In this document: piece after piece, positions 46,462 through 51,430 of the stretch
Layout: the number at the start of each line of letters is the position of its first letter
Position numbering within the stretch: the stretch's first letter is position 1
Assembly (NCBI GenBank): GCA_021813805.1
Contig: JAKAJL010000014.1
Coordinates: forward strand, 22,065 to 86,064
Source of the DNA: Pseudomonadota bacterium
GTDB lineage: Bacteria; Pseudomonadota; Alphaproteobacteria; Rhizobiales; Beijerinckiaceae
DNA: 64,000 nucleotides
Direction of reading: 5' to 3'
The notes under the pieces: generated by a model
Databases searched by the model: none
What the model saw: the letters and a program-made list of their open reading frames with translations, nothing else
What the model was told of the DNA's origin: nothing
Translations under genes and position numbers: made by a program

Positions 46462-46475
46462 TTAACAATAGTCAA
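46462..46475. promoter_or_regulatory. Fnr/Dnr-type box before pqqA
   Basis: TTAACaataGTCAA, one mismatch from perfect, lies 79 bases before pqqA. If it acts at -41.5, transcription would start near 46510, about 44 bases before the ATG. This suggests anaerobic or NO-responsive expression of the PQQ-type locus. Confidence 0.68.
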
Positions 46476-46553: not shown

Positions 46554-46628
46554 ATGAACTGGATCGAGCCCGCCTATTGCGACGTTCGCCTCGGCTTTGA
46601 AGTGACAGCGTACGTTTACGTTCGCTGA
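46554..46628 (+). CDS. pqqA: PqqA, PQQ precursor peptide (24 residues)
   Basis: This short gene is below the ORF track cut-off. The peptide MNWIEPAYCDVRLGFEVTAYVYVR matches PqqA (typical form: WTKPAYTDLRxGFEVTxY). The conserved glutamate and tyrosine that are crosslinked to form PQQ are at residues 16 and 20, with E-V-T-A-Y spacing intact. GAGAGGAA precedes the ATG by a suitable distance. It is followed by a hairpin and then pqqD-pqqE. An unusual Tyr-Cys pair (AYCDV) replaces the common AYTDL. Confidence 0.92.
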   Translation: MNWIEPAYCDVRLGFEVTAYVYVR

Positions 46629-46688: not shown

Positions 46689-46976
46689 ATGGAAACCGAA
46701 CTTCCCCTGAAGCCTGTCGACGCGGTGGAGCTGAACCCCACCCACCATTTCCGCTGGGAGGAGCCGCAGCGCGCTCATGTGCTGCTCTACCCCGAAGGAA
46801 TCGTGAAACTCAACGAGACGGCGGCGGCGATCATCGAAGCCGCGACCGGCGCGCCGTCGATCGCGGACGCCGTCGCCGCTCTCGCCGCGCGCTATGAGCG
46901 CGCCGATCTCGAACCGAAAATCATCGCCTTTTTGGAGGACGCCCGTGCCAAAGGATGGATCCGGGTTAAGTCTTGA
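46689..46976 (+). CDS. pqqD: PqqD, peptide chaperone (RRE domain)
   Basis: The 95-residue protein is the RiPP recognition element that binds PqqA and presents it to PqqE. It has the PqqD segments FRWEEPQRAHVLLYPEGIVKLNETAAAI and AFLEDARAKGWIRV. The ORF track begins at a TTG inside the preceding hairpin; ATG at 46689 with GAGGG upstream gives the standard length. It overlaps pqqE by 32 bases. Confidence 0.94.
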   Translation: METELPLKPVDAVELNPTHHFRWEEPQRAHVLLYPEGIVKLNETAAAIIEAATGAPSIADAVAALAARYERADLEPKIIAFLEDARAKGWIRVKS

Positions 46977-48093
46977 CGGCCTCGGCATGCCGCTTTGGCT
47001 GGTCGTCGAACTAACCTATAAATGCCCGCTCAAATGTCCGTGGTGCAGCAACCCGGTCGATTTCGAGCGTTACGGAAACGAGCTTTCGACCGACGAATGG
47101 AAAGCGGTGCTGCGGCGGGGGCGCGAGCTCGGCGGCGTGCAACTCGGCTTCACCGGCGGCGAACCGACGCTGCGGCGCGACCTCGAGGAACTGGTCGCGG
47201 AGGCCGAGCGCCTTGGCTATTACACCAATCTGATCACCTCAGGCGTCGGCCTTAGCCGGGAGCGGCTGCGCGCCCTCAAGGCCGCCGGCCTCAAGCAGGT
47301 GCAACTCAGTATCCAGGCGCCAGAACGCGCGCTTTCGCACGCCCTGGTCGGCGTCGATGTTTTCGATCAGAAGATCGACATCGCCCGCGCGATCAAGGCC
47401 GAAGGCCTGCCGATGGTGCTGAACGTCCCGGTCAGCCGCTATAATATCGAGCGCACGGCGGGGTTTCTCGATCTTGCCGAGGAGATCGGCGCCGAATATG
47501 TCGAATTCGCCAACCTGCAATATTACAACTGGGCGCTGCTGAACCGCGCCGAACTTCTGCCGACGCGAGAACAGCTCGAACGGTCGGAAGCCATCGTCAA
47601 GGAGAGGCGGAGCCGCCTGGGCAAGAAAATGACGATCTATTTCGTCGTGCCCGACTATTACGACAACCGTCCCAAGGCTTGCATGAACGGCTGGGGGGCG
47701 ATCCATTTGACCATCGCGCCCGATGGCGCGGCGCTGCCCTGCCAGGAAGCCCGGCTGATCAAGACGCTGGATTTTCCCAATGTTCGCGACGCCGATCTGG
47801 CGTGGATCTGGCGCGAGTCGCCGGCATTCCAAAAATTCCGCGGCGACTCCTGGATGAAGGAGCCCTGCCGCTCCTGCGACGAGAGGGAAAAGGATTTCGG
47901 CGGCTGCCGTTGCCAGGCTTTCCTGCTGACCGGGGACGCCGCCAATACCGACCCCGTCTGCGCCAAATCGCCGAACCGGGAGATCATCGACGGCCTGATT
48001 GGCTGCGCGAGGGGCGACCAGCCCGTCGGCGCCGACAAACTGATCATGCGCGACATCCGCAAGAGACTCGCCGGCGTCGGGGCTGGGTCCTGA
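46945..48093 (+). CDS. pqqE: PqqE, radical SAM Glu-Tyr crosslinking enzyme
   Basis: PqqE (382 residues) forms the carbon-carbon bond between the Glu and Tyr side chains of PqqA, the first step of PQQ synthesis. The radical SAM motif CPLKCPWCSNP lies near residue 28, and the SPASM-type auxiliary cysteines are in CMNGWG, CQEARL and CRSCDEREKDFGGCRCQAF followed by TGDAANTDPVC, a PqqE signature. GTG at 46945 is chosen because of an ideal GGAGGA five bases before it; the ORF track ATG is too early. It ends three bases before the next gene. No pqqB or pqqC is in the window. Confidence 0.95.
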   Translation: MPKDGSGLSLDGLGMPLWLVVELTYKCPLKCPWCSNPVDFERYGNELSTDEWKAVLRRGRELGGVQLGFTGGEPTLRRDLEELVAEAERLGYYTNLITSGVGLSRERLRALKAAGLKQVQLSIQAPERALSHALVGVDVFDQKIDIARAIKAEGLPMVLNVPVSRYNIERTAGFLDLAEEIGAEYVEFANLQYYNWALLNRAELLPTREQLERSEAIVKERRSRLGKKMTIYFVVPDYYDNRPKACMNGWGAIHLTIAPDGAALPCQEARLIKTLDFPNVRDADLAWIWRESPAFQKFRGDSWMKEPCRSCDEREKDFGGCRCQAFLLTGDAANTDPVCAKSPNREIIDGLIGCARGDQPVGADKLIMRDIRKRLAGVGAGS

Positions 48094-48096
48094 GCG

Positions 48097-48594
48097 ATGG
48101 GCGCCACGGGTCTGGTCGATATTCTGGCGCGCTATCTGCACATAGCGGGCGTCCTGATTTGGGTTGGCCACAATTGGGCCAATGTCGTGACGCGGCCCTT
48201 CTATCGTCGGGTTTTGCCCGACGATCCGCCCGAAGCGATCCGCGAGGTCCTGCTCGCGGCGTCCAAGCGCGAACATGGCGTCTTCCGCCATGCGTCGCTG
48301 GCCGTTCTCGCTACCGGCCTGCTGATGCTGTGGAATCGCGGCGAGGTCGTCGAGGCCCTGACGCTGTCGCGCCCCGCCATGTGGATCGGGCTCGGCGCGT
48401 GGACGGGAATGTTGATGTTGCTCAACCTCTGGTTTGTGCTGTGGCCGCACCAGAAAAAGACGCTGGGCTTCGTTCCCGCGCCGGTGGAGGAGCGTCTGCG
48501 CTGCACGCGGATCACCTTCGTGTCGTCGCGAGTCAATTCCGTCCTGTCGCTGGCCACGCTGTTGTTCATGGTCATGGGCGCGCATGGCGGGTGA
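48097..48594 (+). CDS. Membrane protein resembling the PuuD membrane domain
   Basis: A 165-residue protein with four predicted helices. The N-terminal RYLHIAGVLIWVGHNWANVV and C-terminal WPHQKKTLGF...SSRVNSVLSLATLLFMVMGAHG resemble the membrane domain of urate hydroxylase PuuD and related putative heme-binding membrane proteins. Histidines near both ends could ligate heme. It starts three bases after pqqE, so it is part of the same operon. It might accept electrons from an oxidation step of the locus; this is inference. Confidence 0.65.
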   Translation: MGATGLVDILARYLHIAGVLIWVGHNWANVVTRPFYRRVLPDDPPEAIREVLLAASKREHGVFRHASLAVLATGLLMLWNRGEVVEALTLSRPAMWIGLGAWTGMLMLLNLWFVLWPHQKKTLGFVPAPVEERLRCTRITFVSSRVNSVLSLATLLFMVMGAHGG

Positions 48595-48614: not shown

Positions 48615-49679
48615 ATGAGCAATTTCAGCTTCGCCTCCGCCCAGGCGCCCCTTCCGGCGAGCGTGCTCGCCGAAATCCGCGAGGACCTCGACGGGCGGGA
48701 CGGCTTTTCCCTGCTCGAACTGCCGTTTTCCACGCCTGAATTCGAGGACATCCGCGCCGGCGCGGAAGCCGAGCTGCGCGCATTGCTCGGTCTCGCCGGC
48801 GACTATCGCGTGCTGTTCCTGCAAGGCGGGGCGACGGCCATGTTCTCGCTCGCGCCGATGAATCTGCTCCGCGAGGGCGAATCGGCGGATTATATCGCGA
48901 CCGGCCTGTGGTCGCGCCGCGCCGCCGAGGCGGCGTCGCGCGTCGCCAATGTGCGGATCGCCGCGACCGGCGACGGGCGCTTCCTGCCGCCGCCGGACGA
49001 CTGGCGCGTCTCCCGCGACGCCCTCTTCCTTCATCTGACCTCGACCGAAACCGCCGAGGGGCTGCAATATTTCGCCTTTCCCGATCTGGACCGCGTCCCG
49101 ATCGTCGCCGACATGACGGCCGATTTCCTCACTCGGCCGCTTGCGCTCGCGCCCTTCGGCCTGATCTACGCCAGCGCCCAGAAAAATCTCGGCGTCGCCG
49201 GCCTGACGATCGTCGTCCTTCACGAAAGCCTCTTGCGCCGCGCCCCGTCCGGCGTCCCCGGCCCCTTCAGTTTCGCGCGGCAGGCCGCGGATCGCAGCAA
49301 GGTCAACACGCCGCCGGTTTTCGCGCTGGCGGTCGCCGGAAAGATGCTGCGCTGGCTGCGCCTCGGCGGCGGTCTCGAAGCGGCGTCCGCGCGCAATGCG
49401 CGCAAGGCGGAAACGCTTTACGCAGCGCTCGACGCGGGGGATTTCTATCAATGTCCCGCCACATCCGGAGACCGTTCGACGGTCAGCGTTCGCTTTCAAC
49501 TGGCGGAGGCGCGGCTGGAGCCGCAGTTCCTGCGCGAGGCGGAAGACGCCGGGCTTTTTCACCTGAAAGGCCATCCCGCCGTCGGCGGTCTGCGCGCCTC
49601 GCTCTATAACGGCGTGACCCAGGAAGCGGTCGAGGCGCTCGCGCTTTTCCTGGCCGATTTCGCGCGGCGGCGGGGCTGA
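48615..49679 (+). CDS. SerC-like PLP aminotransferase with altered substrate pocket
   Basis: The 354-residue protein aligns along its length with E. coli-type phosphoserine aminotransferase: SFASAQAPLPASVL at the start, the PLP lysine in YASAQKNLGVAGLTIV, KGHPAVGGLRASLYN near the end, and the PLP-stacking tryptophan in TGLW. However, the phosphate-binding HR of SHRGKEF is replaced (PFSTPEF), and GGRGQF has become GATAMF. The substrate is therefore probably not phosphoserine. Start 48615 has GGGAGCC upstream; it lies within the pqqADE operon. Housekeeping SerC is the less likely alternative. Confidence 0.78.
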   Translation: MSNFSFASAQAPLPASVLAEIREDLDGRDGFSLLELPFSTPEFEDIRAGAEAELRALLGLAGDYRVLFLQGGATAMFSLAPMNLLREGESADYIATGLWSRRAAEAASRVANVRIAATGDGRFLPPPDDWRVSRDALFLHLTSTETAEGLQYFAFPDLDRVPIVADMTADFLTRPLALAPFGLIYASAQKNLGVAGLTIVVLHESLLRRAPSGVPGPFSFARQAADRSKVNTPPVFALAVAGKMLRWLRLGGGLEAASARNARKAETLYAALDAGDFYQCPATSGDRSTVSVRFQLAEARLEPQFLREAEDAGLFHLKGHPAVGGLRASLYNGVTQEAVEALALFLADFARRRG

Positions 49680-49683
49680 CGCC

Positions 49684-50412
49684 ATGACGCGCGCGCGCGA
49701 CAACGCCCGGATCAACGCCATGGGCCTGACCTTCGCCGGCCCCCTCGGCGTGGCAGCCGGCGTCGACCGCGACGGAAGCAGGATCGTCTCGCTCGATCTG
49801 GCGGGCTTCGGCCATATCGAAATCGGCACGGTCACGCCGGAAACGGCGATGGCGGAGCGCCCGCGCGGCCTGCGCATAGGCGTCAATTTCGGCAGCCTCC
49901 GGCCAGGGTTGGACGACGTCGTGATCGCGGATTATTGCGCCGCCCTGCGCGCGGCCCATGCGCAGGCCGATTATCTCTGCGCCAATCTCACATCGCCGCG
50001 CGGCGGGCGCGATGGCGACACGCCGGGCGTGGAGAACCTTTTGCGACGGCTGCGCCCGCAACGCGACCGTCTGGCCGAACGAAGCGGGCGCAGGGCGCCG
50101 CTTCTGGTCAAGGTCGCGGCCGGGAATGGAGAAGACGCGATGCCGCGCGCCATCGTCGAGGCGAGGCGTTTGCGCTTCGACGGCGTCGTTCTCGTTTGCG
50201 CCGACTTGCGCCGTATCGCCGCAGTCAAGGCCTTCATCGGCGATCTCACGCTGATTTCCGTCGGCGGAGTTGCGACGGCCCGAGACGTGTCCGCCAGGAT
50301 GAAAGCCGGCGCGAGCCTGGTTCAAACTTATTCCGCTTTTGTGGCCAATGGGGCGCCGGCGCTCAGGGGCGCGGTTCCGGCGACGAACGAGCCGACTCGC
50401 GCCGCCGTTTAA
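49684..50412 (+). CDS. PyrD-like FMN flavoprotein, probably not a dihydroorotate dehydrogenase
   Basis: This 242-residue TIM-barrel protein is related to class 2 dihydroorotate dehydrogenase: MGLTFAGPLGVAAGVDRDGS, GFGHIEIGTVTPE and the C-terminal VGGVATARDVSARMKAGASLVQTYSAF match. It is about 90 residues shorter than PyrD, lacks the RMGFNN loop, reads NLTSPRGG where PyrD has NISSPNT, and lacks the later TNTT, so orotate-binding asparagines are mostly lost. It likely oxidises another substrate with FMN. It follows the SerC-like gene by four bases. Confidence 0.75.
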   Translation: MTRARDNARINAMGLTFAGPLGVAAGVDRDGSRIVSLDLAGFGHIEIGTVTPETAMAERPRGLRIGVNFGSLRPGLDDVVIADYCAALRAAHAQADYLCANLTSPRGGRDGDTPGVENLLRRLRPQRDRLAERSGRRAPLLVKVAAGNGEDAMPRAIVEARRLRFDGVVLVCADLRRIAAVKAFIGDLTLISVGGVATARDVSARMKAGASLVQTYSAFVANGAPALRGAVPATNEPTRAAV

Positions 50413-50497
50413 CATCGATCAATGCGCGCCAGCGCTCCGCCTTGCTAGTTTGCTCAATCCTTCCACCGTTGCGGCCCGCCGCCCACACGAGGTTCCG

Positions 50498-51430
50498 ATG
50501 CCCCATCCGCACCAGAAACGCGATCTCTTCGCGAGTCCCTTCAGCCTCGACGACGAGGATCTGTACCGGCGCTGGCGCGACTGGAAACTCACGGATTATC
50601 CGAAGGGTCTGGGTGACCTTCTGGTGGAGGTCGGGGATCCCCGTTCGCTGACCGACAGCGAGCACGCGGCCTTGCTGACGCGCTGCCGCAAGGCGAACAT
50701 GGCGTTATACGCAGGCAAGACCGGCGCCGATCCGGACCCCGAAATTCCGCTCGCCCTGGGCCGGCGCTTCGGCCTGGAGGATCTGAACAAGAACTGGCTG
50801 GCCGACGAGAATGGTCTGACCTCGCTGACGGTGCGAACCGAAGGCGTCCGCCAGCATTACATTCCTTACACCAACCGCGCCATCAACTGGCACACCGACG
50901 GCTATTACAACACCGCCGACAGACAGATCCACGGTCTCAACCTGCATGTGGTGCAGCAGGCCGCCACGGGCGGCGAGAACGCGCTGATGGATCATGAGAT
51001 CGCCTACATTCTGATGCGAGAAAAGAACCCGGACTATATCCGCGCCCTGATGGCCCCGCGGGCGATGACCATCCCGGCCCGCATCGACGACGGCGGGACG
51101 GTGGCGCGCAGGGAAGAGCCGGGGCCGGTGTTCAGCATCATGCCGTCGGGCGACCTGCATATGCGCTATACCATCCGCGTCAACAATGTGATGTGGGCCG
51201 ACGACCCGCTGAGCCGCGACGCTCTGGATTATCTCCAGACTCTGCTCAACAGCGACTCCCCATTCATCTATCGCGGCAGGCTGGAGTCGGGCATGGGTCT
51301 GGTGAGCAATAATGTGCTGCATGACCGCGCCGCCTTCACCGACGACGCCGAACACAAGCGCCACTATTACCGGGCGCGCTATTTCAGCCGGCTGGCCGGG
51401 ACTGGCGTGGCGGAGATTTTCACGCTCTGA
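50498..51430 (+). CDS. TauD-like Fe(II)/2-oxoglutarate-dependent oxygenase
   Basis: The 310-residue protein resembles the TauD/TfdA clan. The facial triad is visible: INWHTDGYYNT (HxD, about residues 131-133) and a distal histidine in NNVLHDRAAF, with an arginine for 2-oxoglutarate in HYYRARYF. The start at 50498 has GAGG upstream. The gene lies 85 bases after the PyrD-like gene on the same strand. Need for O2 sits oddly with an Fnr-type promoter, so it may act in microaerobic transition. The substrate is unknown. Confidence 0.75.
   Translation: MPHPHQKRDLFASPFSLDDEDLYRRWRDWKLTDYPKGLGDLLVEVGDPRSLTDSEHAALLTRCRKANMALYAGKTGADPDPEIPLALGRRFGLEDLNKNWLADENGLTSLTVRTEGVRQHYIPYTNRAINWHTDGYYNTADRQIHGLNLHVVQQAATGGENALMDHEIAYILMREKNPDYIRALMAPRAMTIPARIDDGGTVARREEPGPVFSIMPSGDLHMRYTIRVNNVMWADDPLSRDALDYLQTLLNSDSPFIYRGRLESGMGLVSNNVLHDRAAFTDDAEHKRHYYRARYFSRLAGTGVAEIFTL

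Follow-up and report, generated by a model that had tools for sequence, protein, structure and literature searches.

The product of the gene at positions 49684-50412 of the window (the whole stretch of DNA analysed, 64,000 nucleotides) is, on balance, best read as a repurposed class 2 dihydroorotate dehydrogenase (DHODH), which most likely serves a second, O2-independent branch of PQQ synthesis by removing hydrogen, with FMN as cofactor, from a ring intermediate derived from PqqA. The gene is the last of the operon pqqA2-pqqD2-pqqE2-'PuuD'-'SerC'-'PyrD', and this cluster probably makes PQQ, or a closely related compound, in the absence of oxygen. A preliminary description of the same DNA had suggested a flavin oxidase or dehydrogenase for a different substrate, and the retained FMN contacts and lost orotate contacts argue for this. 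Its suggestion that the protein could provide an O2-independent step together with pqqADE also gains support, and O2-independent PQQ synthesis by the whole cluster has already been proposed (Li et al., 2025; PMC12423496).

In the canonical PQQ route the PqqC step, and probably also the PqqB step, depends on O2; P. aeruginosa and Klebsiella, with no other route, do not produce PQQ anaerobically (PMC12423496). Li et al. (2025; PMC12423496) described the cluster in Hyphomicrobium and in denitrifying gamma- and betaproteobacteria, and the window cluster therefore belongs to a known kind. In Hyphomicrobium denitrificans, a denitrifier that also has canonical pqqABCDE, the cluster (pqqAED-puuD-serC-pyrD, Hden_0548-0553) has the identical six genes and lies near anaerobic ubiquinone genes (PMC12423496). 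Transcript data connect the pqqADE copy of H. denitrificans with the denitrification regulon, and the cluster's pqq genes drop with denitrification genes in SoxR/sHdrR mutants (PMC12423496). No other papers describing the cluster or proposing O2-independent PQQ synthesis were found in the literature searched. Added here are new hosts (Rhodoblastus, a Methylovirgula plasmid, an Acidibrevibacterium plasmid and further MAGs), residue losses in the SerC-like and PyrD-like proteins, an FNR-type promoter box, linkage counts, and a seventh gene, encoding an M48 protease, in some clusters. The features are as follows.

46462-46475, no strand assigned: FNR/NnrR-type dyad TTAACAATAGTCAA, 92 bases upstream of pqqA2, from a pattern search
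46554-46628, + strand: pqqA2, precursor peptide MNWIEPAYCDVRLGFEVTAYVYVR, with the E-x3-Y cross-link motif as in PMC12423496
46689-46976, + strand: pqqD2, peptide chaperone PqqD; reading frame open from 46635, ATG at 46689 chosen
46945-48093, + strand: pqqE2, radical SAM/SPASM PqqE; TIGR02109 504 bits, cut-off 381; reading frame open from 46894
48097-48594, + strand: four-helix membrane protein related to the membrane domain of PuuD (urate oxidase)
48615-49679, + strand: SerC-like PLP aminotransferase without the substrate-side H41, R42 and R329
49684-50412, + strand: short PyrD-like protein, predicted to bind FMN, with exactly these bounds from ATG to stop (242 residues); from reading frame, Pfam, TIGRFAM model, structure model, alignment and tree
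L035 15720-16898, L079 8231-9502, L080 8768-9976, L095 4763-5989 and L189 421-1665 (loci in other genomes): M48 metalloprotease, seventh gene

The PyrD-like protein scores 72.5 bits against Pfam DHO_dh (cut-off 27). Class 2 PyrD models match it with highly significant E-values at scores far under their curated cut-offs, as with TIGR01036 (E 4e-33, yet 114.6 bits against a cut-off of 200). DHODH models of other classes score below 19 bits, and these family scores rule out a PreA or class 1 relative. An AlphaFold2 model built from 14 relatives (mean pLDDT 87.6) has E. coli DHODH as its best PDB match (TM 0.81). In a tree of 44 proteins, of the kind proposed in the preliminary description and with E. 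coli PreA as the only outgroup, the 20 cluster proteins included form one separate clade (support 100/98). This clade lies outside the canonical PyrD clade and the alphaproteobacterial PyrDs, and branches beside class 2 PyrD and not with PreA or class 1; its exact attachment is unsure because the branches are long. Judged from these matches, the protein is a class 2 PyrD descendant whose resemblance is not due to chance. Its likely ancestor is class 2 PyrD (E. coli, PDB 1f76 and 7t5k), with which it shares the fold and FMN contacts. Every landmark that had been read from the 242 residues holds in the alignment and family matches: the N-R-M-G-F-N-N loop is absent, NLTSPRGG replaces NISSPNT, VLVCAD occupies the position of ATNTT, and the C-terminal VGG and GASLVQ are retained. 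AAG.D is also retained, but the dihydroorotate lysine has become Arg (VDRDG).

The active site was compared in an alignment of 16 cluster PyrD-like proteins, E. coli PyrD and 16 canonical class 2 proteins, using the E. coli positions that contact FMN and orotate in the known structures. The FMN contacts A62, G63, N139, N172 and K217 are present in all 16 cluster proteins, T86 is Thr or Ser in all 16, and G297 is retained in 15; the G268 loop, on the FMN side of class 2 PyrD, is deleted. From these contacts we infer that the protein binds FMN. On the orotate side, K66, N111, F115, N177, N246 and T247 are each found in 0-1/16 cluster proteins, as against 15-16/16 canonical rows. K66 (Arg in most) and T247 survive in one protein each and N177 and N246 in none, while the N111-F115 loop is deleted. 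N172 is the sole direct orotate contact that is not lost or unconserved across the family. A Ser aligned to Ser175, the catalytic base of class 2, is present in the NLTSP of the window protein and in 8/16 overall, the rest having Ala or Gly. Because positions 66, 175 and 177 vary, the active site is not tightly fixed. The alignment begins at about E. coli residue 45, so that the N-terminal quinone-binding region is missing, and compared with class 2 PyrD the protein is about 95 residues shorter. The changed contacts and deleted loop bear out the loss of the orotate site that had been noticed in the single protein.

Complete loci were read from Rhodoblastus relatives, Hyphomicrobium, Pseudomonadaceae, several MAGs and the Methylovirgula and Acidibrevibacterium plasmids. 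The order pqqA-D-E-puuD-serC-pyrD is identical in all of them, which makes the association with pqqADE noted earlier a conserved operon. The cluster shares PqqA, PqqD, PqqE and the E-x3-Y motif with the canonical pqqABCDE pathway, but pqqB and pqqC are never inside it in any complete locus read. A PqqE tree with only two canonical PqqEs gives the cluster PqqE clade moderate support (80/87), and its main groupings match those of the PyrD tree, which is what joint evolution of the cluster genes would produce.

The SerC-like partner is approximately 40% identical to canonical SerC (phosphoserine aminotransferase) and has the PLP site in common with it. Across 21 aligned cluster SerC proteins the PLP-site residues W102, T153, D174, Q197, K198, N239 and T240, as well as R335, are invariant, but H41 is replaced by Phe, R42 by a small residue and R329 is lost, each in 21/21. 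K198 is the PLP lysine, R335 the carboxylate Arg and R329 a substrate-side residue. In E. coli SerC, H41 and R42 touch the side chain of the substrate (PMC6797613). Substrate sites have been lost and cofactor sites retained in both proteins, and SerC and PyrD therefore both appear to have been repurposed.

The membrane urate oxidase PuuD acts on a heterocycle, with the electrons thought to go to cytochrome c (Doniselli et al., 2015; PMC4562309). The PuuD-like partner in the cluster shares a Urate_ox_N match with this enzyme, but has four helices and not eight, and no cytochrome c domain. Pfam Urate_ox_N matches all 14 members scanned at E <= 1, with the window copy under the Pfam cut-off, and a fold search of the model against the PDB gave nothing significant. 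Only PuuD-like matches above ~200 bits were counted because a widespread paralogue group scores 60-120 bits, and the low-scoring domain was dropped as a cluster marker. PuuD-like membrane proteins of ~200 residues occur outside the cluster in 84/399 sampled Pseudomonadota (loci L160-L187). The M48 metalloprotease gene follows the pyrD-like gene in Acidibrevibacterium, at L079, L080 and L095, and in the MAG G296, and is a candidate for freeing the modified PqqA peptide.

In the pathway that we propose, PqqA2, PqqD2 and PqqE2 would form the Glu-Tyr cross-link, and a protease would release it from the peptide. The PuuD-like membrane protein would oxidise or hydroxylate the Tyr ring without O2, passing electrons to the respiratory chain. 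The PyrD-like protein would convert NH-CH(COOH)-CH2 of the forming rings to NH-C(COOH)=CH, and together these steps would replace the O2-using PqqB and PqqC. The same bond change is the one that the ancestral PyrD makes in dihydroorotate. As the Glu- and Tyr-derived rings of PQQ precursors also contain NH-CH(COOH)-CH2, the PyrD-like protein could reasonably take over part of PqqC's work without O2, and the PuuD-like protein that of PqqB. The SerC-like aminotransferase fits this scheme least well. PQQ retains both nitrogen atoms of the Glu-Tyr precursor, so an aminotransferase is not an obvious step; it could remove a nitrogen that PQQ keeps, which leaves room for a product other than PQQ.

The O2-independent setting suggested at the outset is consistent with the denitrification genes, UbiU/UbiV and the FNR/NnrR-type promoter box. 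The window has 10 copies of the dyad TTRAY-N4-RTYAA, where 0.21 would be expected; they lie at norC, narK, nosZ, ubiT/ubiD and pqqA2, among others. The dyad is found upstream of pqqA2 in 12/13 alphaproteobacterial-type clusters, with the 13th off by one base, and also in two pseudomonad genomes; Stutzerimonas-type clusters have no exact FNR box within 300 bases of pqqA2. In Dinoroseobacter shibae, TTAAC-N4-GTCAA at nirS is an FnrL/Dnr site tested by mutation (PMC5398030). The alphaproteobacterial operon begins behind a putative FNR/NnrR-type box resembling those at nor, nos and ubiTUV of the window. narG is found in 5/5 Rhodoblastus carriers as against 1/6 non-carriers (one-sided p = 0.013, relatedness ignored), and was not found in four alphaproteobacterial-type carriers.

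NirJ, NarG, Sec-dependent (clade II) NosZ, UbiU/UbiV/UbiD and DsrA form a compact anaerobic-respiration island at 24-61248 of the window. A second FNR-type dyad, at 50409-50422, overlaps the stop of the pyrD-like gene and lies just before a TauD/carnitine-type dioxygenase gene (50501-51430), an arrangement that recurs in the genome G007 (L036, L071). An O2-using dioxygenase behind an anaerobic-type box is odd. The dioxygenase was dropped as a cluster member, as it adjoins the cluster only in the window and G007.

The cluster is hosted by Rhodoblastus, Methylovirgula, Hyphomicrobium, Acidibrevibacterium, MAGs and 34 Pseudomonadaceae genomes, with the Methylovirgula and Acidibrevibacterium copies on plasmids. 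The source genus of the window was taken by inference as Rhodoblastus, in which 5/11 genomes have the cluster and 11/11, the five carriers included, have pqqC. The family of the genome G459 was taken as Pseudomonadaceae, and its genus as Stutzerimonas from PMC12423496 and genome features. In this family the cluster is present in 34/299 genomes, and 33 of the 34 carriers have canonical pqqC, 27 on the cluster's contig and 26 within 10 kb; these carriers are not independent because most belong to one genus. Canonical pqqC is also found in seven other carriers beyond Rhodoblastus, and the window host itself has the six-gene cluster plus a canonical pqq operon. Almost all carriers have the canonical pqq operon as well. 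Of 14 carriers tested, 13 encode a PQQ alcohol dehydrogenase, and its gene is next to the cluster in G459, L227 and L230. One Rhodoblastus MAG, G003, has two diverged cluster copies (L039 27-3874 and L040 7439-11292). On the Methylovirgula plasmid, a second modified-peptide pair, CbpA/CbpB (radical SAM), and a Crp/Fnr regulator lie just upstream of the cluster (L034 8365-9944).

Alternatively, the cluster could make a different quinone cofactor or another modified-peptide product from PqqA2, the SerC-like protein deaminating the Glu or Tyr part and the PyrD-like protein oxidising the deaminated intermediate, which we regard as rather unlikely. The aminotransferase favours such a product, being an invariant cluster member with K198 and R335 intact and its pocket changed, and PQQ synthesis is not known to need transamination. 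G296, an incomplete MAG, carries the cluster and canonical pqqC was not detected in it; as it is 8% contaminated, it was not accepted as proof of a stand-alone pathway. However, nearly every carrier is a canonical PQQ maker whose ordinary PQQ dehydrogenases are encoded next to the cluster or at other places in the genome, and no dedicated apo-enzyme accompanies the cluster. A new non-PQQ quinone, for which the SerC-like protein would strip one amino group from Glu-Tyr and the PyrD-like and PuuD-like proteins would oxidise via respiratory acceptors and not O2, seems to us unlikely.

It is also quite improbable that the PyrD-like and SerC-like proteins have only accessory or non-catalytic roles, with pqqADE supplying extra cross-linked precursor and the others serving in binding, electron transfer or regulation. 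Such a reading would fit the rapid divergence of the PyrD-like protein, which evolves faster than any other part of the cluster, and its unconserved catalytic Ser. Against it stand the invariant FMN contacts and PLP lysine, as well as purifying selection on all cluster genes. For the pyrD-like gene dN/dS is 0.16-0.24 against two relatives, and with values well below 1 and a stop-free reading frame a pseudogene is ruled out.

That the protein is an ordinary second DHODH for pyrimidine synthesis is barely credible despite its class 2 fold and family matches, as it lacks the orotate contacts and quinone-binding region, its gene never occurs outside the pqq cluster in the loci read, and the genome has a full-length pyrD. 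This copy, sought because the preliminary description had asked for pyrD elsewhere, is the only other DHODH in the genome (contig C80, E 7e-78; genome 98% complete), and an ordinary or back-up pyrD is ruled out by the active-site losses, the tree and this second gene. A single-protein scan of genome contigs found no relatives of the PyrD-like protein; an alignment-based scan recovered them, along with many true PyrDs.

With the PyrD-like protein read as a repurposed DHODH, the cluster supplies candidate enzymes for the O2-free operation of PQQ dehydrogenases in denitrifying methylotrophs and pseudomonads. The changed substrate sites in both borrowed enzymes, SerC and PyrD, make the O2-independent proposal directly testable.
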